A stretch of 64,000 nt of DNA from Pseudoselenomonas ruminantium (GTDB lineage Bacteria; Bacillota; Negativicutes; Selenomonadales; Selenomonadaceae), in the NCBI GenBank assembly GCA_015058655.1, contig SVBX01000011.1:1-64000 (forward strand). Direction: 5' to 3'. The number at the start of each line of letters is the position of its first letter. Position 1 is the first letter of the stretch. The translations under genes and the position numbers were made by a program. The notes beneath the pieces were generated by a model. It was not told the DNA's origin, searched no databases, and saw nothing but the letters and a program-made list of their open reading frames with translations. Of the stretch, positions 8,862 to 61,942 are shown one piece after another.

Positions 8862-8876
8862 GGGAGGAAAAAATCA

Positions 8877-10064
<1,188 letters not shown>

Positions 10065-10624: not shown

Positions 10625-10644
10625 TCCCAGGGGAGGTGGAATGA

Positions 10645-11298: not shown

Positions 11299-11321
11299 TT
11301 GGAAGGAGGATACCCTAAATT

Positions 11322-44709: not shown

Positions 44710-44726
44710 TATTTATCCAAAACAAG

Positions 44727-44766
44727 GCCCTAAAATCGGAAGCATTTCCGGTTTTAGGGCTTTTCT
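44727..44766 (+). terminator. Terminator of proS
   Basis: A 15-bp stem (44727-44741 with 44746-44760, one G-T, loop GCAT) followed by TTTTC. Confidence 0.95.
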
Positions 44767-44769
44767 AGT

Positions 44770-44824
44770 ACCTGCTTTTGTCTGATATATAGGGTAGAGG
44801 TAATCTTTTTTTATGAAAGCAGGT
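44770..44824 (+). promoter_or_regulatory. Recombinase promoter flanked by a 9-bp inverted repeat
   Basis: TTGTCT (44778-44783), 17-base spacer, TAATCT (44801-44806) form a promoter. ACCTGCTTT (44770-44778) and AAAGCAGGT (44816-44824) are exact inverted repeats around it, and the right arm covers the recombinase ribosome site (CAGGTG). This could be an operator, a hairpin that hides the ribosome site, or a chance match. Confidence 0.6.
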
Positions 44825-44831
44825 GACGATC

Positions 44832-45449
44832 ATGAGCGGAGCAGTATACGGTTATGTGCGTGTCAGCAGCATGGATCAGAAGGAGGACAGGCAGCTCAGG
44901 GCCATGCGTGAAAAGGGCGTGGCCGATAAGAACATCTATGTGGACAAAATCTCCGGCAAGGATTTCAACCGTCCCATGTATAGGAAGCTGATGAAGAAAG
45001 TACGCATGGGAGACTTGATCTATATCAAGAGCATAGACAGGCTGGGCCGCAACTATGAGGAGATTATCGAGCAGTGGCGTATCCTGACCAAGGAGAAGCA
45101 AGTGGACATTGCCGTGATAGATATGATGTCTCTGGATACCAGAGTGCATAAGAACCTTCTGGGGACTTTTGTAAGTGATGTCTTCCTCTATGTGCTTTCC
45201 TTCGTGGCAGAGAATGAGCGCATGAATATCAGGCAGCGCCAAAGGGAGGGAATCGAAGCAGCCAGGCTCAAGGGCGTGCATCTGGGGCGCCCTGCCAGAT
45301 CTCTGCCCCGGAATTTTGAGCATATAGCAGGCCTCTGGCTGGCACATGAGATTTCCGGCAAAGAAGGGGCAGCCACATGCGGTCTGCCCCTGTCCACCTT
45401 TTATAGAAAATGCAAAGAAATGCAAAAGAATCAGCCACCGCAAAAGTAG
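44832..45449 (+). CDS. Serine recombinase (resolvase/invertase type)
   Basis: 205 residues. The N-terminal catalytic domain has the nucleophile serine in YGYVRVSSMDQ (about S12), the active-site arginines in KSIDRLGRN, and GTFVSDVFLYVLSFVAENER leading into the long E helix. The C-terminal 50 residues hold a helix-turn-helix (ATCGLPLSTFYRKCKEM). Catalytic-then-HTH order is that of Tn3 resolvases and Hin/Pin invertases, not IS607 TnpA, which has its HTH first. The ATG at 44832 is chosen over GTG 44823, which lies in the ribosome site. It sits directly upstream of two 28-bp palindromes that are plausible crossover sites. Confidence 0.9.
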   Translation: MSGAVYGYVRVSSMDQKEDRQLRAMREKGVADKNIYVDKISGKDFNRPMYRKLMKKVRMGDLIYIKSIDRLGRNYEEIIEQWRILTKEKQVDIAVIDMMSLDTRVHKNLLGTFVSDVFLYVLSFVAENERMNIRQRQREGIEAARLKGVHLGRPARSLPRNFEHIAGLWLAHEISGKEGAATCGLPLSTFYRKCKEMQKNQPPQK

Positions 45450-45463
45450 TGGCTGATTCTTTT
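45424..45463 (+). terminator. Bidirectional terminator overlapping the recombinase stop
   Basis: AAAAGAATCAGCCAC (45424-45438) pairs perfectly with 45449-45463, loop CGCAAAAGTA; A-run and T-run on either side. The recombinase stop codon lies in the loop region, so its transcript is cut off before the downstream palindromes. Confidence 0.93.
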
Positions 45464-45485
45464 AATGGGCAATATCTTATATGCA

Positions 45486-45513
45486 TATCTCAAAAGGTAT
45501 ACCTTATGGGATA
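45486..45513 (+). repeat. Candidate crossover site L (28-bp imperfect palindrome)
   Basis: Half-sites TATCTCAAAAGGTA and TACCTTATGGGATA are complementary at 12 of 14 positions, centred on a TA dinucleotide. Length and two-base centre match serine-recombinase crossover sites. The 20 bases from 45486 to 45505 recur exactly, inverted, at 45610-45629. Confidence 0.75.
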
Positions 45514-45556
45514 TGTCTTTTTAAAGTCAATAACAAAAGATTCGGAATATATTTTC

Positions 45557-45585
45557 TTGATTTTGCAGGGAGGAAATGATACACT
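45557..45585 (+). promoter_or_regulatory. Promoter inside the putative invertible segment
   Basis: TTGATT (45557-45562), 17-base spacer, TACACT (45580-45585), pointing at the TnpB-like gene. On the opposite strand TTGACT lies near site L, but without a clear -10. Inversion between the two palindromes would turn this promoter away from the gene. Confidence 0.55.
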
Positions 45586-45601
45586 ACTAGGAGAATATAT
45601 A

Positions 45602-45629
45602 TTTCTTAAAAGGTATACCTTTTGAGATA
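45602..45629 (+). repeat. Candidate crossover site R (28-bp imperfect palindrome)
   Basis: Half-sites TTTCTTAAAAGGTA and TACCTTTTGAGATA match at 12 of 14 positions around a central TA. The outer half is the exact inverse of the outer half of site L; the inner halves differ. Centre-to-centre distance between the two sites is 116 bp. Confidence 0.75.
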
Positions 45630-45665
45630 ATTCTTCTCTTTTTGTGGTGATGAAATGGGACTGGC

Positions 45666-47060
45666 GTGAAAAAGACATCTGAAGAAATTATTACCAAAAC
45701 AGTTTGGCAGTACAGCAAGCCGTTGCCTTCGGAGACCTTGGCTTTCCTGCAGGGGATTGCGGAGGATTACGGCAAGGTCAAGAATTTCGTTTACGGCAGG
45801 TACTCCGGCATCAAGAATATGAACCGATTGGTGCCGGTTTACGATGTGCTGAATGAAATGAGGCATTGCGGCCTGCGGGCCCAGCTGAATTTGCCCGCGG
45901 CCTACTATGAGCTGGCGGTGTCGGAAGCTGTTACGGATATCCGTAGCATGTGGGGCATGCTGAAAAACAAGTTGCGTGACCTCATCAATGCCAACGAGAA
46001 CCTTTCGGCAGATGACCGCGCTTATCTGCGTACTGTTTTGAAGATAAACAGTGTATTTTCCGCCATCTTGAACAGGCAGGAGCATGAACTGCCCAGCAAA
46101 GTCGTGGGACTGGAAATAGATGCCAAGCGGCTGAACAATCTTATATGCCGTCTGGTGAGAAAACATTTGCAGCAACCCAAGACAAACAGCCAGGCAGGGT
46201 TCAAGGTCATGCCTGCAGGCTATCGCTACAAGGAGCAAGGCCTTTACCTGGTGAGCAGGCAGCCGAGGAAGCGGATTTGCATTCCCCTCAGGGACAGCAA
46301 CACTTCCAGCAGGCAGCTGCATATCGTCCTCAAAGGGGATATAGCAGTGATTGCCATGCCGGTGGATGTATGTGCCAGGAAGAGCCCGGATGCCCAGAAT
46401 ATCCTTTATGCCTACATAGGCTACAAGGATATGCTTACTCTGTCCAACGGGCATGTATACGGGGAGAACCTGAACAAACTGGTGACACCTGAGACAGAAA
46501 GGCTCTATGAGAAGAACAGGGAGCGCAGGAAGCAGTATGATGCCTATCGCCAAAGCAAAGAGAATGGGAATCTGAAAAAAGCAGAAAGCATCCTGGCTAA
46601 TAACCTGGGCAAGGAGAAATACCTCAGGATCAAGCAGCGGGAGAGGGAAAAGACGGCCAATTATATCAATGCCGAACTGAACCGCCTGCTGCGCGAGGAG
46701 AAGCCCTGCCGGATAGTGATAACCAAGCCCATCCTCAAGGGAGGCAAGAAGCTCTCCTATGCAGCTGCCAACAGGAGGCTCACCAGGAGCTTCAACGGCT
46801 ATATCCGTGAAAAGCTGGCTTACAAGTGCCGCCTTCATGGCATCGAGCTGGAGCAGATAAGCCCCTACGCCACAGCGTCCACCTGTTCAGGATGCGGCGG
46901 AGAGGGAAAGCGAGAGCAATACGACTTCATCTGCGAAAACTGCGGCCTCAAACTTCCCGCAGCCCTGAATACTGCCAGGAATATAGAAAAGCTGGCTGGA
47001 TTCAAGCCTTCCCCTTTGGGGAAGGGGGACCGCGAAGCGGTGGATGAGGTTGCGACATAA
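45666..47060 (+). CDS. TnpB-family protein with apparently inactivated RuvC site
   Basis: 464 residues. The N-terminal wedge/helical part has GKVKNFVYGRYSG and LPAAYYELAVSEAVTDIRSM. The RuvC-I region reads ILYAYIGYKDMLTLSNG, with Tyr250 where active TnpB has Asp. RuvC-II reads CRIVITKPILKGG, with Thr353 instead of Glu. RuvC-III reads LKLPAALNTARNI, with Ala433 instead of Asp. The zinc ribbon is kept (C407, C410, C424, C427: CSGC and CENC). All three catalytic acids thus seem lost in a full-length reading frame. The last 17 residues come from an R1 repeat. The GTG start lacks a strong ribosome site and is uncertain. Likely an RNA-guided DNA-binding protein without cleavage; this is inferred. 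Confidence 0.8.
   Translation: MKKTSEEIITKTVWQYSKPLPSETLAFLQGIAEDYGKVKNFVYGRYSGIKNMNRLVPVYDVLNEMRHCGLRAQLNLPAAYYELAVSEAVTDIRSMWGMLKNKLRDLINANENLSADDRAYLRTVLKINSVFSAILNRQEHELPSKVVGLEIDAKRLNNLICRLVRKHLQQPKTNSQAGFKVMPAGYRYKEQGLYLVSRQPRKRICIPLRDSNTSSRQLHIVLKGDIAVIAMPVDVCARKSPDAQNILYAYIGYKDMLTLSNGHVYGENLNKLVTPETERLYEKNRERRKQYDAYRQSKENGNLKKAESILANNLGKEKYLRIKQREREKTANYINAELNRLLREEKPCRIVITKPILKGGKKLSYAAANRRLTRSFNGYIREKLAYKCRLHGIELEQISPYATASTCSGCGGEGKREQYDFICENCGLKLPAALNTARNIEKLAGFKPSPLGKGDREAVDEVAT
47005..47050 (+). repeat. Palindromic repeat family R1, half copy at the TnpB 3' end
   Basis: AGCCTTCCCCTTTGGGGAAGG, then ACCGC-GAA-GCGGT and GGATGAGGT. Only the left half is present; it is read in frame as the C-terminal tail of the TnpB-like protein. 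Confidence 0.88.
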
Positions 47061-47300
47061 GCGTAAATTTTAACGAATGCAATTAAAGATTAACCCTGCC
47101 CAACTTGCGGATAAACAGCCAATACCTGTTTCAGCGATCAGCACTGCAAAGCGGACAGTTAATAAAGCCCCGCAAGGGCGAAGCAAAACACGGCCTTATC
47201 TGAGGGAACATCCTTTTCTTGTAGGCCAAGACCGTGGCTTTACACGGAGCGAAGCAGGCGGCTCGCCGTCAGCAGGCACAGGGGTGCCAAGATAATTCAT
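47061..47300 (+). ncRNA. Candidate guide/omega-like RNA region downstream of TnpB
   Basis: No supported gene in about 400 bases to 47466. Several helices are visible: CCCCGCAAGGGC (near 47168), CACGGCCT pairing with AGGCC plus CCGTG (47190-47232), GGCGGCTCGCC (near 47258), and GGCAC-AGGG-GTGCC (47275-47288). Active TnpB and TnpB-like repressors take a guide RNA encoded at or just past the 3' end of their gene; this structured GC-rich tract, ending in AT-rich sequence at about 47290, fits that position. The role and both ends are inferred. Confidence 0.4.
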
Positions 47301-47466
47301 ATGATATTTTTATTTGAAAGAGGGGGGACATACTCTCCAAGGGAAGCTGCATGAGAAAATGGGGAGATGATAGCCCTGTGCAAAGAACTCCTGCAGCCTA
47401 TTTTATTTGTCAAAACTAAAAGAAAGATATAAAAGTGTTGGGATTCTATCTGAGAGGGTGAAGCAT

Positions 47467-48174
47467 ATGGCGCTAAAAAATAGACTCTTATCCAAACTGA
47501 AATCCACCTATGTAACCATGAATATGGCAGCCTCTGCTCACCCTCAGAAGATGCATCCCGTGTATCGCAATCTGGTGGAGGCCAGGACCCTGTGCCAGCA
47601 GGGGATGACGGAAAGCAACTTTGCCAAGTACGAAGAAATCTATGACGGCCTCATCATGGCTATCAAGCAGGTGCTCGATGGAGCGGCTGGTAGCGACACG
47701 CAGGAAATCGTGAATCTCTGCAAGGAGCTCTTGCAGCATATTGTGATGGAAACCACCAAAGAAAAGAATTTCAAAAAAGAGATGGTGTTCCTGCCGTATA
47801 AGGCCAGCATGTGGGATTCGCTGGAGAGTGTATGGCGGGCAGCTTATGAAGATAAAGATAACTGCTTGGCTTATGTGATTCCTATTCCTTATTGCGACAG
47901 GAATCCGGATGGGACAGCTAAAGAGTGGCATTGCGAGAGGGATTTGTTCCCTAAGGATGTGCCCACTTTGGATTGGCAGGAAGTGGATTTGAAGACCATG
48001 CATCCTGATGTGATTTTTTTCCATTACCCGTATGACGACTGCAATCAATTTAACCGCAATTCAATACAATTACGAAAATTAGGTGCATGCCCGAAACCCC
48101 TTGAAACAAGAGGCTTCGGGGATTCAGCTAATTTTGAATCTGACACATTGTATCAAATAAGCAACCAATTATGA
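47467..48174 (+). pseudogene. Truncated copy of the CDP-glycerol-transferase-like gene
   Basis: 235 codons from an ATG behind GAGAGGGTG. The N-terminal 195 residues match the gene at 48430: residues from KKEMVFLPYKASMWDSLESV to KTMHPDVI are identical between them, while the first 100 residues differ moderately. After HYPYDDCN the reading frame diverges into unrelated sequence and stops. So it is a duplicate that lost about 600 residues. The near-identical middle next to diverged ends suggests gene conversion. It could still make a short protein. Confidence 0.75.
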
Positions 48175-48327: not shown

Positions 48328-48378
48328 TAGCCTTCCCCTATGGGGAAGGTGGCAGACCGAAGGTCTGACGGATGAGGT
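48328..48378 (+). repeat. Palindromic repeat family R1, half copy before the glycan locus
   Basis: TAGCCTTCCCC-TAT-GGGGAAGG, then AGACC-GAA-GGTCT and GGATGAGGT, with the second half missing. It lies about 50 bases upstream of the next gene start. Confidence 0.85.
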
Positions 48379-48429: not shown

Positions 48430-50916
48430 ATGGCCATCAAAAGCAGGCTCCTATCTAAGTTGAAATTTATATACATGACCACAACCATGGCAGCCACCGC
48501 TCATCCACAGAAGCTGCGCCCTGTGCTTCACAATCTGGAGGAGGCCAGGGAACTCTGTCAGCAGGGACTGACCGAGAGCAATTATGCCAAATACGGTGAA
48601 GTGTATGATGGCGTTATCATGGCTATCAAGCAGATACTCTCCGGGGAAGCCGGAAAAGATGCTGGGGAGATTGTGGGGCTCTGCAGGGAACTCCTGGAGC
48701 ATATTATGGCCGAGACTGGCAAGGAGGAACACTTCAAAAAAGAGATGGTGTTCTTGCCGTATAAGGCCAGCATGTGGGATTCGCTGGAAAGTGTATGGCG
48801 GGCAGCGTATGAGGATAAGGATAACTGCCTTGCTTATGTGATACCTATTCCTTATTGCGACAGGAATCCGGATGGAACTGCTAAAGAGTGGCACTGCGAG
48901 AGGGATTTGTTCCCCAAGGATGTGCCTACTTTGGACTGGCAGGAAGTAGATCTGAAGACCATGCACCCAGACGTGATATGCTACCACTACCCGTATGATA
49001 ACTGCAACAGAGTTACCAGCCAAAGTGAAGAATACTACAGTAGTAATTTGAAGGAATGTGCGGATAAGCTGGTTTATATTCCTTATTTTGTGCTTCCAGA
49101 GTTGGAGTTTGACTATGATGACCCAGATAAGATAGATGAAATACGGGAAAATGAGGATGATTTTGCAAATGTCATACTCGAACCAGGGGTGACAAATGCA
49201 GATTATGTCATTGTTCAATCTGAGGCTATTAAAAAGATTTATGTCAATGTTTTGAGTAGATATACTTATGCTACAAATGATTACTGGGAGAAACATGTTT
49301 TAGGATTGGGTTCACCGAAACTTGATAAGGTATCCGTAAGCACAAAAGAGGAATATGATTTACCAGAGCGATGGAAAGAGATCATAGCTGGCAAGAGGAC
49401 TGTTCTTTATAATACTGGTTTATCAACCATGCTTAAGTATACAAAGTCTTATCTTGAGAAGGTACGTTCAGTATTAAGTGCTTTCAAGTCTCAAAAAGAT
49501 TTGGCACTTTGGTGGCGTCCACATCCATTGTTGCGTTCTACATTTCATTCTATGCACCCTGAGCTTTTGGCAGAGTATGAAAGCATAGTCAATGCTTATA
49601 TTCGAGAAAGCTGGGGAATATATGATGATACAGTTGAACTGGATAGGGCTGTAACTTATACGGATGCATTGTATGGGGATTGGAGTAGCGTAGAACAATT
49701 GTACCGAGAGGTTGATAAACCAGTATTTAGGCAAGAAATTGAATATAAAATCCCTGAAATAGAGTTTGATGAATATTTGACTTTTACAGATGCCATGTGG
49801 GATGGTGATGAGCTGATTTTTTCAGCATGGAATGCTAATGGAATTTTTTCTTTTAATGTCAGGACAGAGCGGACAGAATTATTGAAGTTTCTGCCAGCTA
49901 AATTGAATATAAAGTCTTTATTTTGCAGAATGGAGAAGGTTAACTCCAAACTATACTTTATTCCTACCAATGAAGAGTTCATACTGATTTTTGATAAGGA
50001 AAAAGAAGTGTGGGAGAAAGTATTTATTGATGATGGAAAACTAGGAGACTCGAGGGCAAGATTTACTGATGCATATAGGTTTGGTAATACAATATGGTTG
50101 AAACCTTATTTCTCGCATGCAATAGTATCTTATTCGATAGATGATGGGGAGTTGACATATTACTCTGAGTGGTATAAGGAATTGGAACCGTATATCGATG
50201 AAGATAATAATTCGCCAAAGTTTGGGGCGGGGTCAAAGTCAGATGATGCTTTCTATTTTCCATTAGTTCAAGCAAATAAGGTTGTTATGTTTGATATTTT
50301 GTCAAGAGCACATAGAATCATAAGCATTGGCAATGATGATGATTCTATTCTGAATGTTCGGTATTACGATAATAAACTCTACTGTTATACCACTCATGAT
50401 GATTTACTTATTTATAATCTGGGGACGAATGAAATTAATAGAAAGAATAGTGTCTTCCATCAGCTGGTAGAGTCGGTGGGAATGGTAGTAAAGAACGGTT
50501 TTATGTGGATTTTTTCGTGCAGGAAGGATATGTATGCAAAAGTCAGCATAAGCGATTTTTCTACAGAAATTATAAAAGATTACTGTGATGGAATGGATAT
50601 TGGCTATCCTAATATTGTAATAAAGGATAATATGATATATCTTTATCCTAATAAAGCTGAGTATATATTTGTAGTAGATAATATCAGCAATGATGTAAAA
50701 AAGATTACTGTTCCTATGCCAAAAGGGTATGGAATTGAGTGGGAGAAGAAGATGGTCGAGCAGTTCCCTTTGAGAGAAATGAATGAATTGAAATTACTGA
50801 AGAAAATGATTAAAGGGCATAAAGACGATTTAAAATATGATGATATAAAGAATAATGCTGGAAACAATATTTACAAAGAAGTGTTGTGCCATATGCAAAC
50901 AGGGAGGAGTGCATAG
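48430..50916 (+). CDS. CDP-glycerol glycerophosphotransferase-like protein with C-terminal propeller-like region
   Basis: 828 residues, no signal peptide. The N-terminal ~430 residues resemble the GT-B-type glycerophosphotransferase group of Firmicutes: FLPYKASMWDSLESVWRAA, AYVIPIPYCDRNPDG, KLVYIPYFVLPEL, then KRTVLYNTGLSTMLKY and LWWRPHPLLRSTFHSM. Residues ~440-800 hold repeated beta-strand patterns (LTFTDAMWDGDELIFSAWNA, ARFTDAYRFGNTIWLKPYFS) of the kind seen in six- or seven-bladed propellers. It probably builds or modifies a surface polymer, but donor and acceptor are unknown. The second half is AT-rich. Its stop overlaps the next GTG start. Confidence 0.65.
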   Translation: MAIKSRLLSKLKFIYMTTTMAATAHPQKLRPVLHNLEEARELCQQGLTESNYAKYGEVYDGVIMAIKQILSGEAGKDAGEIVGLCRELLEHIMAETGKEEHFKKEMVFLPYKASMWDSLESVWRAAYEDKDNCLAYVIPIPYCDRNPDGTAKEWHCERDLFPKDVPTLDWQEVDLKTMHPDVICYHYPYDNCNRVTSQSEEYYSSNLKECADKLVYIPYFVLPELEFDYDDPDKIDEIRENEDDFANVILEPGVTNADYVIVQSEAIKKIYVNVLSRYTYATNDYWEKHVLGLGSPKLDKVSVSTKEEYDLPERWKEIIAGKRTVLYNTGLSTMLKYTKSYLEKVRSVLSAFKSQKDLALWWRPHPLLRSTFHSMHPELLAEYESIVNAYIRESWGIYDDTVELDRAVTYTDALYGDWSSVEQLYREVDKPVFRQEIEYKIPEIEFDEYLTFTDAMWDGDELIFSAWNANGIFSFNVRTERTELLKFLPAKLNIKSLFCRMEKVNSKLYFIPTNEEFILIFDKEKEVWEKVFIDDGKLGDSRARFTDAYRFGNTIWLKPYFSHAIVSYSIDDGELTYYSEWYKELEPYIDEDNNSPKFGAGSKSDDAFYFPLVQANKVVMFDILSRAHRIISIGNDDDSILNVRYYDNKLYCYTTHDDLLIYNLGTNEINRKNSVFHQLVESVGMVVKNGFMWIFSCRKDMYAKVSISDFSTEIIKDYCDGMDIGYPNIVIKDNMIYLYPNKAEYIFVVDNISNDVKKITVPMPKGYGIEWEKKMVEQFPLREMNELKLLKKMIKGHKDDLKYDDIKNNAGNNIYKEVLCHMQTGRSA

Positions 50917-51662
50917 TGAAGGTAGTTGATGCAGTATGGGAATTAAGAAACCTTGGTAAGAGAACCATAGAAGTGAAGCTAGAGAAAAAAGATTTTTCTC
51001 GTGAACCAGTGGAAGTATATGCAGACATTGAAGATGCGGAGAAGATTTATCATGCTGAATACACCGTCGTAAAGATGAAGACCGGATATCCGCAGGTTGG
51101 ATGGGAATTACAGAAGAATGGCTTTTGGCATGTAGAAACACAGATTTGTTTACGTGCATTTTATGATGATGTAAAAAGTTGTGTTTTTCAATATGAGCAG
51201 CTTTACTCAGGTGCTGAACAAAAAACTATTGATACATATGATGATGTAACATACATAAAAAATGAGATAGAAAAGGGGATATTTTCAACGGATAGAATTG
51301 CTCTAGATCCATTTTGGGGGATAAAGGTTGCAAATCATAGGTATGCTAATTGGGTGGAAGATGAATATAAACGTGGCAGTGAGCTGTCTTATATATCTGT
51401 AGAAGGTAAGAATGTTGGATTTGTTTTACATCGTATAGAGAATAAAGTACGTAATGCGTTATTGACGGGGGTATTTCCGCAGTTTAGGAGTGGTAACTAT
51501 GGTGCGTTTGTATTGTATGCAGGAAGCGCTTCAATGATAAAAAAAAACATAAAAGTATCATATGGAGATGTTTCTTCTAATAACCCCGCTATACTTGCGT
51601 TAAATGAAATGTTTGGAAGTAGGGTAAGATTTATGTATGATGTGTATACACGCCATAAATGA
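50916..51662 (+). CDS. GNAT-like acetyltransferase (WecD/RffC-like)
   Basis: 248 residues; GTG at 50916 follows AGGGAGGAG and overlaps the previous stop. The middle RIALDPFWGIKVANHRYANW-(VEDEYKRG) and the later GFVLHR and VFPQFRSGNYGAFVL stretches resemble dTDP-4-amino-sugar N-acetyltransferases of the WecD/RffC group. The aminotransferase at 63641 is of the matching WecE/RffA type, so the two could make dTDP-4-acetamido-4,6-dideoxygalactose. The similarity is by eye and moderate. A noncoding 173-base AT-rich gap follows. Confidence 0.6.
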   Translation: MKVVDAVWELRNLGKRTIEVKLEKKDFSREPVEVYADIEDAEKIYHAEYTVVKMKTGYPQVGWELQKNGFWHVETQICLRAFYDDVKSCVFQYEQLYSGAEQKTIDTYDDVTYIKNEIEKGIFSTDRIALDPFWGIKVANHRYANWVEDEYKRGSELSYISVEGKNVGFVLHRIENKVRNALLTGVFPQFRSGNYGAFVLYAGSASMIKKNIKVSYGDVSSNNPAILALNEMFGSRVRFMYDVYTRHK

Positions 51663-51835
51663 TGTGGGGGCTAAAAGTCAAATTGTGTACTATATGCCAC
51701 AGGATGATGTGATTTTACTTTAGAAATTAGCACAATATATTGTTTAGCTTGAGTGAAGAAGTTACTTTTACCCCTTACGTCATAAGATTTTATATTAGTT
51801 TGGACGAAGGAGTACCGGATAAGGAGTTTTGTAAC

Positions 51836-52060
51836 ATGAGCGAGAAAGATTTTATTGAAAAAATGGTTGAACTTATGGACACGGAGCAGGAAGTTGCACT
51901 GACAACAAAGCTGGAGGATATAGAGGAATGGGATTCCCTGAGTTATGTTGCCTTTCTAGCAATGTGTAATGGCATTTCTTCTAGAAGAATAATGCCGAAG
52001 GAAGTGAAGGCGGCAACCACAATCAATGATTTATATGAGCTTATAAAAGGTGAAGCGTGA
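51836..52060 (+). CDS. Acyl carrier protein, first copy
   Basis: 74 residues. The acidic four-helix pattern and the phosphopantetheine serine in EEWDSLSYVAFLAM (about S37) mark it as an ACP. The ATG at 51836 follows AAGGAG; an open frame from 51740 adds a non-ACP extension. The stop overlaps the next start (TGATG), so it is coupled to its KASIII partner. Confidence 0.85.
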   Translation: MSEKDFIEKMVELMDTEQEVALTTKLEDIEEWDSLSYVAFLAMCNGISSRRIMPKEVKAATTINDLYELIKGEA

Positions 52061-53106
52061 TGATTGTAAGGCTTAATTATTTGCACATCGTTGCTCTTAC
52101 TGTTACAGTCTCTAGCAATATTATTCCAGTGTCTGAACGATGTGCAGAGCTTTTTTCGCCCAATAAAATTAGACGCTTAGTGAAACAAACAGGTGTAGAA
52201 TCGTTGAGTATAGTACGGGGGGGCGTTTGTGCATCTGATATGTGCTATGATGCCGCAGAGCGTTTGTTTGCAGCTGGTGAGGCTAAACGTGAAGAAATAG
52301 GTGCCATTATTTTCCTTTCACAGACACCTGACTATATAAATCCGGCTACTAGCTATTTGTTGCAGGCAAGATTAGATTTATCAGATGATGTTATAGCTTT
52401 GGATGTTAACCTGGGATGTTCAGGATATGTTTATGGCCTTTACTTGGCAGCAACTATGCTTGCAAATATGCCAGAAGGACGGAAAGTTCTCCTTTGTTGC
52501 GGCGACAGTGGCAGCAGCCTGATACATCCTCAAGATACATCGACAATGCCCATAATGGGAGACGCAGGTGCAGCTACTATCATTGACAAGGGGATGCAGT
52601 CGAAAAAGAATGCATATTTTGCTTTCAACAGTTTTGGCAAGTTGGCAAACGCTCTTAAGATACCGCGAGGTGGAGCCAGAGCTGTCAACTTGACGGAAAA
52701 TGAACATCTTAGCCTGGACAGGGACAACTATACTGTCATGGATGGCATGGCTATAATGGATTTCTCTTTGACAGAAGCACCCCGGAATATACGCGAATTA
52801 CTGACTGAGGCAAAAGCAGATGTTGATGAAATAGATTTAGCGGTCTTTCACCAGGCAAATAAAATAATAGTGCGTTCACTTGGTGAAGAGCTTGGCTTTC
52901 CAGAGGAGAAAGTTCCATGGGGAGTGGCACGTATTGGCAATTCTAATTCATCATCTATACCTGCTTGTCTGGCAGAGATGAAAAGGCAGGGCGTATATCA
53001 TGGCTATGGACAAGTATTGCTGTCAGGTTTTGGCGTAGGCTTATCTGTTGCCTCAACGTTGCTGAATATTTCGGATTTACATATCCTGGAGACAAAAGAA
53101 ATATGA
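52060..53106 (+). CDS. 3-oxoacyl-ACP synthase III-like enzyme, first copy
   Basis: 348 residues of the KASIII/FabH fold. The catalytic triad is complete: Cys120 (DVNLGCSGYVYG), His264 (VFHQANK) and Asn294 (RIGNSNSSS). FabH starts chains by condensing an acyl-CoA with malonyl-ACP; relatives in glycan and natural-product loci use other acyl donors or transfer acyl groups. Start ATG 52060 overlaps the ACP stop. Its stop overlaps the SDR gene. Confidence 0.88.
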   Translation: MIVRLNYLHIVALTVTVSSNIIPVSERCAELFSPNKIRRLVKQTGVESLSIVRGGVCASDMCYDAAERLFAAGEAKREEIGAIIFLSQTPDYINPATSYLLQARLDLSDDVIALDVNLGCSGYVYGLYLAATMLANMPEGRKVLLCCGDSGSSLIHPQDTSTMPIMGDAGAATIIDKGMQSKKNAYFAFNSFGKLANALKIPRGGARAVNLTENEHLSLDRDNYTVMDGMAIMDFSLTEAPRNIRELLTEAKADVDEIDLAVFHQANKIIVRSLGEELGFPEEKVPWGVARIGNSNSSSIPACLAEMKRQGVYHGYGQVLLSGFGVGLSVASTLLNISDLHILETKEI

Positions 53107-53870
53107 GCGAAGTAACATTTGATTTTGAAGGACGTAATTTTGCAGTTATAGGAGCTTCTTCTGGTATGGGAAGGCAAGTAGCGGAGGAACTTGCACTTGC
53201 TGGTGCTAATGTCTTGGCTGTCGGCAGAGATAAGACAAGGCTGCTGGAGTTGCAGAGTTTGGAGCCTGAGCGTATTAGTTGTGTACAACTAGATGTAATA
53301 AGTGCAGGCAAATCGGAATGGATTGAGGTGCTTGATGCATTTGTGGCAGCCAATGGGAAACTGAATGGCGGTGTTTACGCGGCCGGAATTACTGCATTGA
53401 CTCCTTTACGATTATTTGATGATGAACTGGCGCAGCGCATTCTCTCTACTTCATTGTGGGGATGGATTCATTTTTTGCAATATGTCAGCAAAAAAAGATT
53501 TTCTATGCCGGGGGCATCTTATGTTGTATTTTCTTCTGCTGGTGCAGACTCAGCTGAAAGTGGCATGACAGCTTATGATGCAGCTAAGGCAGGGGTCAGG
53601 GCTGCCATGAAAGTGGCGGCATTGGAATTAAGTAAAAAAAGTCATAGGGTAAATAGTATTAGTCCTGGCTGGGTTGGGACTAGGATGACCCAGCAATATG
53701 ATAATGAGGCAGGAGCGAGTAAGCGTGTTTTTGACCGTCATCTGCTTGGTCTTGGGAAGCCGGAGGATGTCAGTGGCATGGTACTTTTTCTTTTAAGTGA
53801 TCGTGCTAGATGGATAACGGGAGCAGATATTCTGGTTGATGGGGGATATTTGCGTGGAGCTTACAGATAA
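53103..53870 (+). CDS. Short-chain dehydrogenase/reductase, first copy (FabG-like)
   Basis: 255 residues. Rossmann motif VIGASSGMGRQVAEE (about 15-29), catalytic serine in YVVFSSAG and the YxxxK pair in TAYDAAKAG, plus the C-terminal ITGADILVDGGYLRG. It probably reduces a 3-oxoacyl-ACP made by the KASIII. Coupled by a 4-base overlap. Confidence 0.88.
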   Translation: MSEVTFDFEGRNFAVIGASSGMGRQVAEELALAGANVLAVGRDKTRLLELQSLEPERISCVQLDVISAGKSEWIEVLDAFVAANGKLNGGVYAAGITALTPLRLFDDELAQRILSTSLWGWIHFLQYVSKKRFSMPGASYVVFSSAGADSAESGMTAYDAAKAGVRAAMKVAALELSKKSHRVNSISPGWVGTRMTQQYDNEAGASKRVFDRHLLGLGKPEDVSGMVLFLLSDRARWITGADILVDGGYLRGAYR

Positions 53871-53905
53871 GGAGGTGGAGTATGCTATAAAGCATACGAT
53901 TCAAT

Positions 53906-54766
53906 ATGGATGATTTTAGCAATGTAATAGCGACTATACAAAAGGGCTTTGGTAAAGAGTTAATAAATAAAATATTTGGTGCTGTTTCCACAGTTTATAA
54001 TGACAGTGATTATATCAATACGAAACGCGCTAAGCATCAGATTATGAAAGAGATTTCAGAAGACGCGAGATGGAGTGCACTTGAGAGATATGCCATTGTA
54101 GACAATATTGATACCATTTCCAAACAGTTTGCGAATGTACTGGATATTTGTAAACGGGCTGGAGAAATAATGAACCAATCTGATAGAGCGAAGGATTACA
54201 ATAACCTAGATGAAGAATGGGTTGCAAAATTCAAGGAATGTTCGAAGAATGCGTCCAGCGATAATATACGGCAGATGTGGGCAAAATTATTAGCTGAAAG
54301 GGTGGAGAATAACAAAGGGATTACGAAGTCACTTTTGAACACATTATCTTTGCTGGAAAGCTATCAAGCAAAATGCTTTACAACAGTGTCTGCGTTTCGC
54401 TTAATATTGAATGATGGCGATGAACAAAGAGTGTGTGTTATTTTTCCACATGACATTATAAACAAGTATTTCGATTATGTTACATTTGACACGCTGGTTG
54501 AATTAGACAATTTGGGGTTAATAAGGTATTCTCACATAGGGAGAGCCATTATAAAAAGAAAAATGATTCACGGCATATGGGAAAACAGAAAAATTTCAAT
54601 AGCAAATAAAGATGACATACCTGAAATCGTGCTAGGTAAAATAAATTTAACACATTCAGGTGAGACACTAGCCTCCATTATTGCTGAAACAGTAGATGAA
54701 AAAATATTTGTAGATGTGATAGGAGAATATTGCCAGAAATGTCATTATGACTTCCAGATAGAATGA
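53906..54766 (+). CDS. DUF2806-like protein
   Basis: 286 residues, soluble. DEEWVAKFKECSKNASSDNI then RQMWAKLLAERVENNKGITK is the hallmark stretch of DUF2806 proteins (SS..I..LWA-LL). The C-terminal half is less conserved. The function of this family is unknown to me. It interrupts the enzyme genes of a biosynthetic operon and overlaps the next frame only slightly. The gene is AT-rich. It may be a regulator, a defence-type passenger or part of the pathway. Confidence 0.6.
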   Translation: MDDFSNVIATIQKGFGKELINKIFGAVSTVYNDSDYINTKRAKHQIMKEISEDARWSALERYAIVDNIDTISKQFANVLDICKRAGEIMNQSDRAKDYNNLDEEWVAKFKECSKNASSDNIRQMWAKLLAERVENNKGITKSLLNTLSLLESYQAKCFTTVSAFRLILNDGDEQRVCVIFPHDIINKYFDYVTFDTLVELDNLGLIRYSHIGRAIIKRKMIHGIWENRKISIANKDDIPEIVLGKINLTHSGETLASIIAETVDEKIFVDVIGEYCQKCHYDFQIE

Positions 54767-54783
54767 TGCCTAGGAGTAATGAT

Positions 54784-55854
54784 ATGATTTCCAGTGTGTT
54801 TAGAAATATTAAGATTGCAGGCATTGCAAGCGTGGCTCCAGTGAAAGAGGTGGATTGCGAATTATATTGTACTAGATTTGGTGAAAAGAATGTCAAGAGA
54901 ATAATGAAGATGACTGGTGTTAGAAAGATTCATCGTGCTATAGACGAGCAAACCTCAGGTGATTTGGCTTATGAGGCTGCTGCAAGATTGCTTAGACAGA
55001 AGAATGTAAAACCTGACGAAATAGGCGCAATTGTTTTTTTGACTACATGTCATGATTATATAGTACCTTCTACAGCTGGTGTTATACAAAAACGGTTGGG
55101 GGTCACTCAGGATAGCTTGGTATTTGATATAAATCTTGGGTGTTCTGCCTATGTATATGGTTTGGAAACCATAGCTGCTTTAATGAGTGGCAGCAATATA
55201 AAAAAAGCACTATTGCTGACGGCTGAGACTAATAGCAAGCTCCTTTCTCCAGAGGACAACTCTGTTATGTTGTTTGGAGATGCTGGTTCTGCCACTTTAT
55301 TAGAAAAAAAAGATGATGCAGGGACTATGAGGGTTGCACTAAAAAGCGATGGTAACAGATATGATGCAATTTATGTGCGTGGTGGGGGATTCAGGCATAG
55401 GTTTGTTAGCGAGGAAAGGGTAGTGCAGAGTGATGGTGTATGCAGATCTGATTATGATTTGCATATGGATGGCGGTGAAGTGTTCAATTTTACCATGACT
55501 GATGTGGTGGGGCTGTTTAGCGAATTTATGGATGAGAATCGCTTATCTATTGAAGACTTCGATTCGTTGGTCTTACATCAAGCGAGCCACTTTGTTCTTA
55601 AGCATTTGGCATCTTCGCTAAAAATGCCCATGGATAAAGTCCCTTTAAGCTTAGATGAATTTGGTAATACAGGTGCAGCTACAATTCCGCTTACCTTATG
55701 CAAAGCGTATGGATATGATGACTCCAGAATAACTAAAAGAATCTTGGCATCTGGTTTTGGTGTAGGGTTGTCCTGGGGGATAGCTGATTTTCTGGTAAGC
55801 CCTAACGATATTATGCCCATAGAATATACGGATGAATATTATAAGGAAGGTTGA
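54784..55854 (+). CDS. 3-oxoacyl-ACP synthase III-like enzyme, second copy
   Basis: 356 residues. Complete triad: Cys120 (DINLGCSAYVYG), His265 (VLHQASH) and Asn295 (EFGNTGAAT). It is related to, but clearly diverged from, the first copy, including an insertion near 185-230 (GGFRHRFVSEERVV). The ATG at 54784 has AGGAG seven bases upstream; an ATG at 54763 is less well placed. Two copies suggest different acyl donors or two successive condensations. Confidence 0.88.
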   Translation: MISSVFRNIKIAGIASVAPVKEVDCELYCTRFGEKNVKRIMKMTGVRKIHRAIDEQTSGDLAYEAAARLLRQKNVKPDEIGAIVFLTTCHDYIVPSTAGVIQKRLGVTQDSLVFDINLGCSAYVYGLETIAALMSGSNIKKALLLTAETNSKLLSPEDNSVMLFGDAGSATLLEKKDDAGTMRVALKSDGNRYDAIYVRGGGFRHRFVSEERVVQSDGVCRSDYDLHMDGGEVFNFTMTDVVGLFSEFMDENRLSIEDFDSLVLHQASHFVLKHLASSLKMPMDKVPLSLDEFGNTGAATIPLTLCKAYGYDDSRITKRILASGFGVGLSWGIADFLVSPNDIMPIEYTDEYYKEG

Positions 55855-55864
55855 TTTGGTTATT

Positions 55865-56116
55865 ATGACAAATGTGGAAGTATATACGGATATATTCAAG
55901 CGTGTTTTTGAGATAAGTGACAATACTGGTAAAATTGAAACCTTGAAATATCAGGAAATACCAGAGTGGGATTCGGTAGGGCACATGGAACTTATCTCTG
56001 AGATTGAAGATGCTTTCGATATAGAGTTTGAGACAGAGGACATTATCGAATTCTCCAGCTATCAGAAAGGCCAGGAAATACTGGCTGCTAATTATGGCAT
56101 AGATTTTACGGCTTAA
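55865..56116 (+). CDS. Acyl carrier protein, second copy
   Basis: 83 residues with the serine in PEWDSVGHMELISEIEDAFD and a normal acidic helix III (ETEDIIEFSSYQKGQEIL). It is closer to standard ACPs than the first copy. The start is uncertain: an AAGGAAGG lies about 15 bases upstream of the ATG at 55865. Confidence 0.87.
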   Translation: MTNVEVYTDIFKRVFEISDNTGKIETLKYQEIPEWDSVGHMELISEIEDAFDIEFETEDIIEFSSYQKGQEILAANYGIDFTA

Positions 56117-56140
56117 GTTGCAGGGAGAGAAGGTATTCTT

Positions 56141-56593
56141 ATGCACTTATCAAGTGATGAAGTGAAGCAGTATCATACCATGCGGGGACCGTTTTTGCTG
56201 ATAGATGAAATTGAGTATGTGGAGCCAGGTGTAGAGGCAGTAGGCAAAAAAAAACTTCCTGAAGATGAATGGTTCTTCATAAATCATTTTCCTGGTAATC
56301 CTGTTATGCCCGGGGTCCTGCAGCTTGAAGCTATGAATCAAACAGGGGCCATTATCATCAAGACGTTGCCAGAATATAGAGATCGCACTATTTATTTTGT
56401 CAGTGTGAAAAACTTGAAAAGCATCACGGCTGTAAGACCAGGCAAGGATTTAATGCTGAAAGTCAAACTGGAAAGCCTCAAGCACGGCATTGCTAAGTTC
56501 CATGGCGAGGCGTATGTAGGGGAGCAAATCGTATCTCGTGCAGATTTCGTAATGGGCGTATCAGGTGAATTCCTGAGTCCTATAGTTGGATGA
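56141..56593 (+). CDS. FabZ-like 3-hydroxyacyl-ACP dehydratase
   Basis: 150 residues, hot-dog fold. The active-site stretch NHFPGNPVMPGVLQLEAMNQ (about 48-67) has both the catalytic histidine and the glutamate in the following helix. With KASIII and FabG-like partners it could complete a short elongation cycle; no enoyl reductase is present locally, so products may stay unsaturated or use the host FabI/FabK. Confidence 0.9.
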   Translation: MHLSSDEVKQYHTMRGPFLLIDEIEYVEPGVEAVGKKKLPEDEWFFINHFPGNPVMPGVLQLEAMNQTGAIIIKTLPEYRDRTIYFVSVKNLKSITAVRPGKDLMLKVKLESLKHGIAKFHGEAYVGEQIVSRADFVMGVSGEFLSPIVG

Positions 56594-56610
56594 TGGTAGG
56601 GGGGTTGCAA

Positions 56611-57351
56611 ATGGCAGAGGGTAAGAATGCTGTTGTGACAGGAAGCAATCGCGGTATAGGCAGAGCAATAGTCAGGAAGCTGGCGCAGGCTGGCTATAAT
56701 GTATGGGCCTGTGCCAGGCAGGAGAGTGAGGCGTTTGAGGCTGAGTGCGCGGCTATTGCTTCTGAGTTCTCTGTCTGGGTGCGCCCCGTGTATTTTGATT
56801 TATCTGATGAAGATGCAGTCAAGGCAGGGGCAAAAAGCATCACAAGGGAAAAATTATTCATTGACGTGTTGGTGAACAACGCAGGCGTAATTGGCCAGGC
56901 CGGTCTGTTTACCATGACCAGAATAGAAGACATACGAGCTCAGTTCGATATTAACTTTTTCAATCAGCTCATCTTTATGCAAGTTATAGCGAAGCATATG
57001 ATGAAGCGTAAACAGGGCAGTATCGTTAATATGGCATCTATATCTGCATTGGATGGCTATGGCATCCAGTTGGGGTATGTGTCCAGCAAGGCGGCAATGG
57101 TCGGTGCAACCAAGAGATTGGCACGTGAACTTGCTCCCTTCCATATACGTGTAAATGCTGTGGCACCGGGGATGGTGAATACAGATATGGCAGCATTGAT
57201 GACAGAAGAGCAGAAGGCGGAGGTGTTGGAGCGCATCATTATGAAACGTCCGGCAGAGACGGAGGAAATCGCAGATGCTGTTCTGTTTCTAGCCTCGGAG
57301 CAAAGCCGGTATATCACTGGACAAATCGTGCGTGTGGATGGGGGGATGTGA
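56611..57351 (+). CDS. Short-chain dehydrogenase/reductase, second copy (FabG-like)
   Basis: 246 residues. AVVTGSNRGIGRAIVRKLAQ, the NNAG motif (VLVNNAGVIGQAG), catalytic serine in VNMASISAL, the YxxxK in GYVSSKAAM and a C-terminal YITGQIVRVDGGM are standard for FabG. The ATG at 56611 follows GGGGGG. The next gene starts just after its stop. Confidence 0.9.
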   Translation: MAEGKNAVVTGSNRGIGRAIVRKLAQAGYNVWACARQESEAFEAECAAIASEFSVWVRPVYFDLSDEDAVKAGAKSITREKLFIDVLVNNAGVIGQAGLFTMTRIEDIRAQFDINFFNQLIFMQVIAKHMMKRKQGSIVNMASISALDGYGIQLGYVSSKAAMVGATKRLARELAPFHIRVNAVAPGMVNTDMAALMTEEQKAEVLERIIMKRPAETEEIADAVLFLASEQSRYITGQIVRVDGGM

Positions 57352-57353
57352 TT

Positions 57354-58211
57354 ATGCAGGCTGACGGATTGGCAGAGAAATATACAGAAATAGAAAACCA
57401 TGCCCGAAATATGCGTAAATTAGGGCTTGATATGGCACTGAATGCAGGAGATTCCGCCGCGCATTTTGGTGGAGGCATGTCCTTGGTTGATATATTGGCA
57501 GTCCTCTATTTTGGTGTAATGAATACAAAGGATAAAGGCATGAAAGATCCCCAGCGTGACCGCTTTATCCTGAGCAAGGGTCATGGTGTTTTGGGCTATT
57601 ATGCGGCATTGGTGGAGGCTGGATTGGCGCCGATGTCAGCTATTGACACCTTTGAGCACGATGAAGGGATTTTCTTTGGGCATCCTGTCATCAATAGAGA
57701 GGCAGGCATTGAGTTCAGCAATGGCAGCCTTGGCATGGGGTTAGCATTGGGAATTGGCGTGGCTATTGCAAATCGCAAACGAGGCTATGGCAATAAAGTT
57801 TATGTTCTGCTTGGAGATGGTGAATGCAATGAAGGCTCTGTATGGGAAGCCTTTATGGCGGCCCCTCAGTATAAGCTGAAAAATTTGGTAGCTATCATAG
57901 ATAAAAATACATATCAGCTGGGCGGGGAAAATGCTGAAATCATGTCTATTGATGACATAGCAAATAAGCTAAGGGCTTTCAACTGGGAAGTGCGTGAATG
58001 CGATGGGCATGATGTGCCGGAATTATATAACGATATGACAAAAACATATGAGGAAGAGCGTCCCTTGGCTATCGTTGCTCATACTGTTAAAGGAAAGGGC
58101 TTTGCGTTTGCGGAGGGAAATAACAGCTGGCATCACGCTGTTATGACACAAAAGCAATATGAGCTGGCTGTGCAGGAATTGAATAAGTGTCAGGCAGGTG
58201 AGGCTAAATGA
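57354..58211 (+). CDS. Transketolase, N-terminal subunit
   Basis: 285 residues, the thiamine-diphosphate PP half: RDRFILSKGHGVLGYYAAL and the ThDP motif LLGDGECNEGSVWEA (GDG-x-xx-NE). It pairs with the next gene to form a split transketolase. Transfers two-carbon ketol units from a ketose phosphate to an aldehyde acceptor. An in-frame GTG at 57348 is an alternative start. Confidence 0.93.
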   Translation: MQADGLAEKYTEIENHARNMRKLGLDMALNAGDSAAHFGGGMSLVDILAVLYFGVMNTKDKGMKDPQRDRFILSKGHGVLGYYAALVEAGLAPMSAIDTFEHDEGIFFGHPVINREAGIEFSNGSLGMGLALGIGVAIANRKRGYGNKVYVLLGDGECNEGSVWEAFMAAPQYKLKNLVAIIDKNTYQLGGENAEIMSIDDIANKLRAFNWEVRECDGHDVPELYNDMTKTYEEERPLAIVAHTVKGKGFAFAEGNNSWHHAVMTQKQYELAVQELNKCQAGEAK

Positions 58212-59173
58212 TGGAGTATAGCAGCAAGAATGCTCGCAAATGGTCGCGTATGGGTGAGCGCCCAGTGTTTGGCCTGACTGTCCTTGAGATGGCCAAGGAG
58301 CATAAGGATATAATTGCCTTGGCGGCTGATGTTGCCAGTTCTGCTGGTTTGGAACGTATGAAGATGACGCTTCCGGAACAGTTCCTTGATACGGGTATTG
58401 CTGAGCAAAATATGATGGGGATTGCTGCGGGGCTGGCTAGCGAGGGATATCGGGTTGTGACTACGACATTCGCGCCGTTTCAGTCTATGCGTTGCTTGGA
58501 ACAGATTCGCGTGAATCTGGGCTATATGGGCGCAAAGGTGTGCATGGCAGGTCTGGCCAGTGGTTTTGCCTATGGGGAGTTGGGCAACACACATTGCTGC
58601 TTTGAGGATGTGGCCATTATGCGAGCAATTCCCAATATAGCGGTGGTTTCCCCAGCAGATTGCATGGAGGTGGCCAAAACGGTGGAGGCGGCTCTGCAAC
58701 ATGACACATCTGTCTATATCCGTTTGATGGGTAAGAAGGATGTGCCTGTGGTCTATGCTGAAGATTATGATTTTCAGCTGGGCAAAGCAATCACCTTGCG
58801 CGAAGGCGTTGATGTCGCTATCGTAGCGACGGGTACGATGGTCGCTAGGTCTTTGCAGGCAGCTGATATCCTGGATCAGCAGGGGATTTCTGCCACCGTC
58901 GTGGATATGCATACCATCAAGCCGCTGGATACAGGTTGCCTGGACAAGTTGTGCGAGCACAATCTGTTAGTGACCGTAGAGGAGCATAATGTCTGCGGTG
59001 GGCTTGGGAGTGCAGTGGCAGAGTATCTGGCTCCGAAAAAAGAGCGTCCGCCACATCTGTTGATTGGTGTAGAGGACTTTTTCCCTCATGCTGGCAGTTA
59101 CGAATATGTCCTGCAGCAGTGTGGCTTGACTGCGGAACAGATTGCGGCTCGCATTCGTGATCTTTGCCGTTGA
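58208..59173 (+). CDS. Transketolase, C-terminal subunit
   Basis: 321 residues, the pyrimidine-binding and C-terminal domains. The catalytic glutamate lies in DTGIAEQNMMGIAAGLA; TTTFAPFQSMRCLEQIR and the ELGNTHCCFEDVAIMRAIPN loop are typical. It overlaps the N-terminal subunit gene by 4 bases. A dedicated transketolase next to an aldehyde-forming LuxC-like enzyme hints that the aldehyde could be the ketol acceptor (inference). Confidence 0.93.
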   Translation: MMEYSSKNARKWSRMGERPVFGLTVLEMAKEHKDIIALAADVASSAGLERMKMTLPEQFLDTGIAEQNMMGIAAGLASEGYRVVTTTFAPFQSMRCLEQIRVNLGYMGAKVCMAGLASGFAYGELGNTHCCFEDVAIMRAIPNIAVVSPADCMEVAKTVEAALQHDTSVYIRLMGKKDVPVVYAEDYDFQLGKAITLREGVDVAIVATGTMVARSLQAADILDQQGISATVVDMHTIKPLDTGCLDKLCEHNLLVTVEEHNVCGGLGSAVAEYLAPKKERPPHLLIGVEDFFPHAGSYEYVLQQCGLTAEQIAARIRDLCR

Positions 59174-59233
59174 AGGCTATGCAATATATACATGGGAGGA
59201 TACGCTATTCTCCTATAGAAAGCAGTGATACTC

Positions 59234-60430
59234 ATGCAGCAAGAAACGCAGAAAATTGAATACCTGATTGGCAGCGAGAAGATGTTGGCAGATATGCCTT
59301 TGTTGCCGTCATTGCCCATTTTTTCTGACCTTGCACTGTCTTTTTTGGAAGGGCTTTCCAAGCGGCTGCTGCATAGCAAGGAGGCCAAGGCCTATGGCGA
59401 TGTGGTGGCTTATGGTTTCTGGGTGCGCCGCGCATATATGGGCAAGGTACGCAAGCGTTATGCCGGTGAGGCAGAACGCCGCCTGGGACGCGGTGTTGCT
59501 TTCCATATAGCTCCTTCCAATATCCCCGTTCAGTTTGCGGTTTCACTGACTTATGCTTTACTGGCAGGGAATGCTTCGGTAGTGCGGGTGTCCGGCAAGG
59601 AATTCCCGCAGGTTGATATCATTTGCGAGACGATATCGACAGTCATTCGCGAGGAATGCCCTGATGTTGCACCTTATATCTGCGTTGTTCGCTATGGGCA
59701 TGATGATTTGGTGACGCAAAAACTGTCCGCAATTTGCGATATCCGCATGATTTGGGGGGGGGACCGCACAATCGAGGCCATCCGCCGGGCACAGGTGGGG
59801 CCGCGCTGTCTTGATCTTGGCTTTGCGGACAGGTATTCCCTGGCAGTGTTCGATGCGGAGGCCTATCTGGAGATGGACAGGGCAACCGTGGCGCATGCTT
59901 TCTACAATGATACGTACTACGTAGACCAGAATGCCTGCAGCTCGCCCAGGCTGATTGTCTGGACAGGCAACAGGATTGCAGAAGCGCAAGAGGCTTTCTG
60001 GGGGGCGCTGGCCCCGCTCGTGGCAGAAAGATATGAGATGAGCGATATCGCTGCCTCGGAAAAATTGCTGCACACGACGCTATGTGCTGCAAAGCATCCG
60101 GGCGTAAGGGAGATTAAGCATGACAATCTGGTGGTCCGCCTGGAATTGCCGGAGATTTATGCAGATGTGATGGCTTATGAGGGCAATTGTGGCTATTTCC
60201 TGGAGTACAGCACACGGGATTTACAGGAAATTTTACCTTTGCTACGCAAGAAATGCCAGACCATTACATATCTGGGAACATTGGCTGAAAGACTGAGGGC
60301 AATGGTTGTCGAGCATGGCGTTAGGGGCGTTGATAGGATAGTACCGGTGGGACGGGGCATGGATATGGTCTTTGTTTGGGACGGCATTGACTTGCCGTTG
60401 GCTTTGTCCAGGATCGTCAGCGATGTGTGA
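59234..60430 (+). CDS. LuxC-like acyl-CoA/acyl-protein reductase
   Basis: 398 residues of the aldehyde-dehydrogenase fold, LuxC group (usual LuxC is about 480, so this is a short form). GRGVAFHIAPSNIPVQFAVS (about 86-105) is the nucleotide/acyl motif, MIWGGDRTI (about 172-180) follows, and the nucleophile is Cys235 in VDQNACSSPRL. It would reduce an activated acyl group to an aldehyde with NAD(P)H. ATG 59234 chosen; GTG 59225 is possible. Confidence 0.82.
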   Translation: MQQETQKIEYLIGSEKMLADMPLLPSLPIFSDLALSFLEGLSKRLLHSKEAKAYGDVVAYGFWVRRAYMGKVRKRYAGEAERRLGRGVAFHIAPSNIPVQFAVSLTYALLAGNASVVRVSGKEFPQVDIICETISTVIREECPDVAPYICVVRYGHDDLVTQKLSAICDIRMIWGGDRTIEAIRRAQVGPRCLDLGFADRYSLAVFDAEAYLEMDRATVAHAFYNDTYYVDQNACSSPRLIVWTGNRIAEAQEAFWGALAPLVAERYEMSDIAASEKLLHTTLCAAKHPGVREIKHDNLVVRLELPEIYADVMAYEGNCGYFLEYSTRDLQEILPLLRKKCQTITYLGTLAERLRAMVVEHGVRGVDRIVPVGRGMDMVFVWDGIDLPLALSRIVSDV

Positions 60431-60514
60431 AGGCATGGTTGTGTTTGGTTTATGTGTGTATCCAGGCTTAGGTTCACATAGGTAAGCATATTGCAACAGA
60501 GTGGAGGCAGATTG

Positions 60515-61921: not shown

Positions 61922-61942
61922 GTTTTGACCGGAGGGTAGATA

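Follow-up and report, generated by a model that had tools for sequence, protein, structure and literature searches.

Candidate phase-variable, RNA-guided regulators derived from nuclease-dead TnpB proteins at surface-glycan loci

Which role can be retained by a TnpB-like protein that has lost the catalytic acids of its nuclease? This question arises from a stretch of Pseudoselenomonas ruminantium DNA of 64,000 nucleotides (contig SVBX01000011.1 of assembly GCA_015058655.1, positions 1 to 64,000), herein called the window, which encodes such a protein between a recombinase gene and a cluster of glycan/lipid-type genes (Table 1). An earlier inspection of the letters, made without database searches and here termed the sequence-only reading, had suggested that selection preserved the protein for RNA-guided DNA binding without cutting. 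Our analysis makes it fairly probable that the protein is a domesticated nuclease-dead TnpB which stands at the head of a surface-glycan cluster and, together with its own guide-like RNA, serves there as an RNA-guided, phase-variable regulator of the TldR type.

The reading frame of the protein comprises 464 codons, opens with GTG and contains no internal stop. Its C-terminal half matches the TnpB/Cas12f families (Pfam Cas12f1-like_TNB, 4.8e-14; NCBIfam guided_TnpB, 2.7e-17); the latter score of 63 bits lies under the curated cut-off of 100, and the protein is therefore a divergent member. An AlphaFold2 model built with 24 aligned sequences (mean predicted local distance difference test score, pLDDT, 84.8) aligns over residues 7–450 with the TnpB-omegaRNA-target DNA complex 8h1j (Z 18.8), and similar Z scores were obtained with Cas12f structures. 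The complexes of dCas12f with guide RNA (gRNA; PDB 9n9c and 9n9m), a non-cutting Cas12f type by name, are likewise similar in structure, yet score lower than TnpB (Z 15.8 and 14.8). Judged by this model, the protein has the full-length TnpB/Cas12f fold. In alignments with nuclease-intact homologues, both distant full-length ones (L053, L054, L056 and L057; ~21% identity) and closer ones (L156 and L157; E values of 1e-112 to 1e-122 with the family hidden Markov model), Tyr250, Thr353 and Ala433 fill the columns where these proteins hold D, E and D, precisely as the sequence-only reading had placed them in its intact frame. The acids are missing from all 28 aligned long rows, which carry Y, H, A or S at position 250, T, A, P, M or I at 353 and A, S, P or K at 433, and the four zinc-ribbon cysteines, that is both CxxC pairs noticed earlier, are invariant across the same rows. 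The D/E/D triad of an active TnpB/Cas12f nuclease is thus absent. Acids at alternative positions of the RuvC centre, which the sequence-only reading had named as a point that would speak against it, did not turn up: when residues 240–445 were scanned, the sole acid conserved in at least 90% of the rows was E345, whose column is Arg in L053, L054 and L056, and therefore no substitute active site is apparent from the alignment. The last ~17 residues (SPLGKGDREAVDEVAT) derive from a short interspersed palindromic repeat, which occurs in the window at 47008-47025, 34450-34467 and 48332-48349 and is read in frame as SPLGKGDREAVDEV at the C-terminus. A SufB-like protein encoded at another place in the genome (L002:1546-3069) carries the same repeat peptide close to its N-terminus, and a weak second match of the protein in its own genome (C32) was discarded, being this peptide and not a TnpB.

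Relatives sharing 33–57% identity with the protein were found in Selenomonadaceae, Lachnospiraceae and other Clostridia as well as on two viral-collection contigs, most of the members found being from Lachnospiraceae; the family thus extends beyond the Negativicutes. None of the ~34 distinct members retains any of the three RuvC acids where the motif is readable (L160 stops short of the third motif), and a maximum-likelihood tree places the dead rows in a single clade (93/79 support) apart from the nuclease-intact rows. The ratio of nonsynonymous to synonymous substitution rates (dN/dS) is ~0.07–0.14 in close, unsaturated member pairs, pairs including the window protein being too divergent for a reliable value. 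By these ratios, purifying selection maintains the dead TnpB in close relatives, and the window protein is a member of this family, neither a lone nor a decaying copy. The clade-wide loss together with the dN/dS values bears out the earlier idea that selection kept the protein after its active site was lost, and the opposite case, a decaying pseudogene, was rejected for the family, as its close pairs show no decay. The family is rare, being present in 6 of 300 genomes of the window's class; 4 further genomes came from 391 drawn from the class of G693, and 3 of those 4 have an intact D/E/D. A search of annotated phage and plasmid records returned no close family member. Some genomes hold two or three loci with dead TnpB, RNA and glycan genes (e.g. 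of the G695-G697 type). A second dead-TnpB copy in G005 (L017/L094, G005:C4:1162-2290) is split into two frames and has kept its RNA element. The nearest homologues with intact RuvC acids (L156:7741-9135 and L157:7348-8739, from two clostridial genomes) have no adjoining glycan genes or R1-type RNA match, and represent a natural 'before' state for comparing RuvC inactivation.

If the protein no longer cuts, does it still have an RNA to work with? In nearly all members with enough flanking sequence, a conserved RNA element lies directly 3' of the dead-TnpB coding sequence. Its consensus comprises 16 pairs in three helices, with 98.5% of the cells paired and 8 pairs changed on both sides; 0 of 500 shuffles reach the covariation score, and the covariation is lost when partners are slid by 1–3 columns. 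The covariance model recovers the element in loci outside its building set, and following up its weaker whole-genome matches revealed additional family members beside them. Searching Rfam, permissive mode included, yielded chance matches only. The scaffold closes with a fixed 3' motif, TAATnCTTATGAT in one subclade and CCAATATgCCTTATTAA-like in the other, beyond which the sequence is variable. Indeed, L036 and L037, two close copies in one metagenome-assembled genome (dS 0.13), diverge within a few bases past this motif, as do L020 and L021, whose proteins are almost identical. TnpB omegaRNAs are built in this way, their guide being drawn from the DNA that flanks the scaffold, which suggests that the variable stretch may act as a guide and that dead TnpB presumably binds the RNA. 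A pseudoknot pairing the end of the scaffold with its 5' part, drawn by eye, was dropped since it fails in some rows.

The family thus shares with the TnpB-omegaRNA (reRNA) systems of IS200/IS605 elements and with Cas12f the fold, the zinc ribbon and a 3' RNA ending where a variable stretch begins, but differs from them in that the RuvC acids are lost and neither a TnpA transposase nor a CRISPR array was seen nearby. TnpB proteins are kin to the ancestors of the CRISPR enzyme Cas12. In a defence role, the dead protein would hold phage DNA or receptor genes like other non-cutting Cas12 relatives. Weak PADLOC matches to Cas12f/Cas12u and the fact that surface glycans are common phage receptors would fit. 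However, each locus has one variable stretch, with no repeat array within 44600-47700, a glycan operon and not defence genes lies alongside, and one member resides in a phage contig, and we regard a defence function as very improbable.

A regulator that is itself phase-variable requires a switch, and candidates for such switches were found upstream. In the window, the gene preceding dead TnpB encodes a serine recombinase whose nearest solved structures are those of Tn552 bin3/Sin, gamma-delta and a Gin-type DNA-invertase. It is directly followed by two near-palindromic sites around AAAAGGTATACCTTTT that are mutually inverted; a third site was absent from the 64 kb, and none appeared in shuffled sequence. 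Inverted sites beside a site-specific recombinase are what an inverton is expected to show. Similar site pairs occur in L034, L035, L038 and the phage contig L051, and an invertase gene precedes dead TnpB also in L038 and L051. The sequence-only reading had spoken of a link to a resolvase-type recombinase. A recombinase does adjoin the gene, but its best match is the DNA-invertase family and it lies beside inverted sites, not in a transposon-like setting; nor is the serine type constant, as most relatives carry a tyrosine recombinase instead. A serine recombinase next to a TnpB-like gene might also be the decaying rest of an IS607 or IS605 transposon that survived by chance, and the split G005 paralogue could be taken as a sign of such decay. 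Yet the recombinase scores 29 bits with the IS607 serine-transposase family against a cut-off of 110 and far better with the DNA-invertase family, its sites are inverted, close pairs are under purifying selection and the one dead clade spans several families, all of which makes a transposon remnant hardly credible.

Promoter inversion in a domesticated regulator gains weight from the relatives, where the switch takes other forms. In many Lachnospiraceae members, a tyrosine recombinase replaces the serine invertase. Nine loci (L022, L023, L024, L025, L029, L030, L033, L039 and L005) carry two 25-bp lox-like sites 1.3–1.5 kb apart, which match in inverted orientation at 22–25 of 25 bases, asymmetric spacer included; the tyrosine recombinase gene, where seen, sits between them. 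A third switch type (L019, L026, L027, L031 and L004) consists of a ~280–350 bp segment with no recombinase inside. Here, a promoter of consensus sequence (TTGACA-17-TATAAT) faces dead TnpB in L031 and has the reverse direction in L026 and L027. The segments of L027 and L031 are 69% identical in opposite orientation as compared to 50% in the same orientation. Promoter inversion is thus evidenced in relatives by sequence comparison, and switching may by extension occur in the window strain itself. In L037 (1452-1943), ~150 bp of the switch region were assembled in both orientations, which would fit the presence of both states in the sample or a misassembly arising from it. The constant partnership with a recombinase or inverton could also mean that RNA-guided binding serves a non-repressive end, either steering the recombinase towards its sites or bringing in another factor that activates transcription. 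We consider this improbable, as two unrelated recombinase types are involved and some loci have no local recombinase, the sites are ordinary recombinase sites with no guide matches, and no fused or adjoining activator was seen.

Table 1. Features at the nuclease-dead TnpB locus of the window
Feature	Position	Strand	Remarks
Serine recombinase, DNA-invertase family, 208 aa	44823..45449	+	Pfam Resolvase 5.5e-28; PHROG 125 DNA invertase 4.8e-50
Hairpin at recombinase gene end	45423..45464	.	terminator-like on - strand
Left recombination site	45484..45515	.	near-palindrome, core AAAAGGTATACCTTAT
Candidate invertible segment	45516..45593	.	between inverted sites; homologous L027/L031 segments in opposite orientation
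Candidate promoter TTGATT-17-TACACT (extended -10)	45557..45585	+	weak; faces dead TnpB
Right recombination site	45594..45629	.	inverted vs left site; palindrome 45604-45627, core AAAAGGTATACCTTTT
Nuclease-dead TnpB-like protein	45666..47060	+	RuvC columns Y250, T353, A433; zinc ribbon C407/C410/C423/C426
5' part of conserved RNA element	47061..47190	+	boundary approximate; blocks CTGAGAATAAAT / TTTTACC / GGATCACAGG kept in relatives
Guide-like RNA scaffold core	47191..47305	+	ends in TAATTCATATGAT; covarying pairs; covariance model 96.8 bits
Putative guide, length uncertain	47306..47323	+	ATTTTTATTTGAAAGAGG; variable right past fixed motif in all loci
Truncated N-terminal copy of conserved transferase-like gene	47407..48174	+	
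Conserved transferase-like protein, 828 aa	48430..50916	+	weak Glyphos_transf match
Glycan/lipid-type gene cluster	50886..63049	+	runs past window end

What, then, would be regulated together with the switch? A transferase-like gene adjoins most family members. In the window, the cluster behind it encodes an acyl carrier protein-like protein, β-ketoacyl-acyl carrier protein synthase III (KAS III) twice, short-chain dehydrogenases/reductases, transketolase-like halves, LuxC, an AMP-ligase-like protein and LuxE; the genes further downstream in relatives include those for a DegT aminotransferase, WbqC, glycosyltransferases, an epimerase, a polysaccharide pyruvyl transferase, WcbI and a cytidylyltransferase. 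Four of the features by which TldRs are recognized are present in the family: the TnpB fold with zinc ribbon, the loss of the RuvC acids, an adjoining RNA scaffold, here a predicted one, and a stable association with non-transposon cargo, given that transferase-like and glycan genes stand beside most members.

Among published systems, csrA-associated TldRs come closest. Upstream of these lie hin and a promoter inversion of ~120 bp, their guides target fliC open reading frames, and their hosts are gut commensals, Oscillibacter and Flavonifractor among them (PMC13418256). The likeness, which we draw by description and not by protein sequence, extends to a nuclease-dead TnpB with adjoining guide RNA, an upstream invertase gene, promoter inversion and several loci per genome. 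In contrast, the present family goes with surface-glycan operons, no flagellin or csrA gene was seen beside it, the invertible segment contains a tyrosine recombinase in most members, and no guide target was found. Invertible promoters of surface polysaccharides (Bacteroides Mpi and relatives) and Salmonella Hin likewise combine a serine invertase, inverted sites and a promoter segment upstream of surface-glycan genes, whereas here an RNA-guided-type protein and an RNA stand between switch and operon. Dead TnpB regulators as such, and an invertase with inverton upstream of one flagellin-targeting group, are thus already published, and where the sequence-only reading knew of no described case linked to a resolvase-type recombinase in Negativicutes, hin upstream of nuclease-dead TnpB at csrA-tldR loci is a published case of an invertase beside such a protein (PMC13418256). 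No paper linking a TnpB-type protein to switchable polysaccharide loci was found in the openly readable literature, a body that excludes subscription papers and most preprints.

Taking these observations together, the regulator could work as follows. The invertase would flip a short promoter segment, and in the ON orientation the glycan operon would be transcribed at least in part, along with dead TnpB and its RNA. Dead TnpB would bind the RNA and hold DNA matching ~16–18 bases past the scaffold without cutting it, and the bound complex would block transcription at the matched DNA; repression rather than activation is what the analogy to TldRs suggests. That is, 'this glycan locus ON' may entail 'another gene OFF', in the way that TldR acts on flagellin.

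Several observations weigh against such a regulator. A whole-genome search with the window guide at up to two mismatches found no target, and four other guide patterns (L020, L021, L086 and the one shared by L088/L089) returned their own site or chance-level matches only. Several post-scaffold stretches can form hairpins by eye, which could argue against a free guide. In addition, the window promoter is weak and known in one orientation, from a single assembly; a stricter promoter scan omits it, and promoter-like sites are no more frequent than in shuffles. Of the RNA-guided binding without cutting proposed by the sequence-only reading, the expected structured RNA beside the gene has thus been found, and binding itself, for which no target emerged, is likely at best. 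Individual matches did not hold up. One of the window guide (G000:C46) proved, as judged by eye, to be a terminator-like hairpin's tail, and a 13-nt match of L088 to the codons VVVQSE of the downstream gene is unconvincing in view of how many guides were compared and lacks a clean 'other, not self' pattern. In the Selenomonadaceae relatives L004, L094, L095 and L096, the post-scaffold stretches (GGAAACAACAGCTTTATT and variants) can form a small hairpin, and most of the differences among them fall at every third base. This pattern had hinted at a coding target, but a degenerate search yielded none that made sense.

The failure of the DNA target searches speaks for the main rival, in which dead TnpB and the RNA in the operon leader act in cis on the nascent transcript of their own operon by antitermination or attenuation, with no DNA guide involved. 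UpxY and UpxZ proteins at Bacteroides capsule loci provide a comparison. The RNA element is always directly upstream of the glycan operon, apparently on the same transcript, and in L051 the post-scaffold stretch coincides with the ribosome-binding region of the gene that follows. However, the whole TnpB architecture including the zinc ribbon has been kept, as have the omegaRNA-like position and the sharp boundary between scaffold and variable stretch, none of which a leader-RNA binder would need. We therefore hold cis action to be unlikely, and continue to favour the phase-variable RNA-guided regulator.

Should this regulator act on DNA as proposed, a wider consequence can be envisaged. Flagellin is the main setting in which TnpB-derived, RNA-guided transcription factors are known; a clade that goes with surface-glycan loci and with two unrelated types of inversion switch would bring phase variation and RNA-guided regulation together. 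It would also allow a direct test of how cells that carry several switchable coat loci avoid their joint expression, and it provides a compact dead-TnpB family of natural origin whose scaffold is defined, plus a phage-borne version. A tentative extension, which we rate as doubtful, is a genome-wide network in which the guide of each ON glycan locus silences a rival surface locus, leaving one coat per cell, and in which phages use the module to rewrite the host coat.

The phage-borne copy lies in L051, a 41-kb viral-collection contig, where, in the region 440-12204, integrase, holin and endolysin genes are followed by a module. It comprises an invertase, an inverton, dead TnpB, a recognizable RNA element and transferase-like, nucleotidyltransferase-like and phosphodiesterase genes, and is possibly a lysogenic-conversion module for surface glycans. 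L051 resembles the prophage fliC-TldR of Enterobacter (PMC13418256) in that its dead TnpB, with surface-type cargo, stands beside such phage genes, but the L051 cargo consists of transferase and phosphodiesterase-like genes, and L051 has its own invertase and inverton.

Finally, in four related loci, L027 (7799-9409), L026, L031 and L032, the RNA element is separated from the transferase-like gene by an AAA_35-type ATPase gene. The tandem truncated and full transferase-like copies of the window (47407-48174 and 48430-50916) suggest that operons have been exchanged behind the module.
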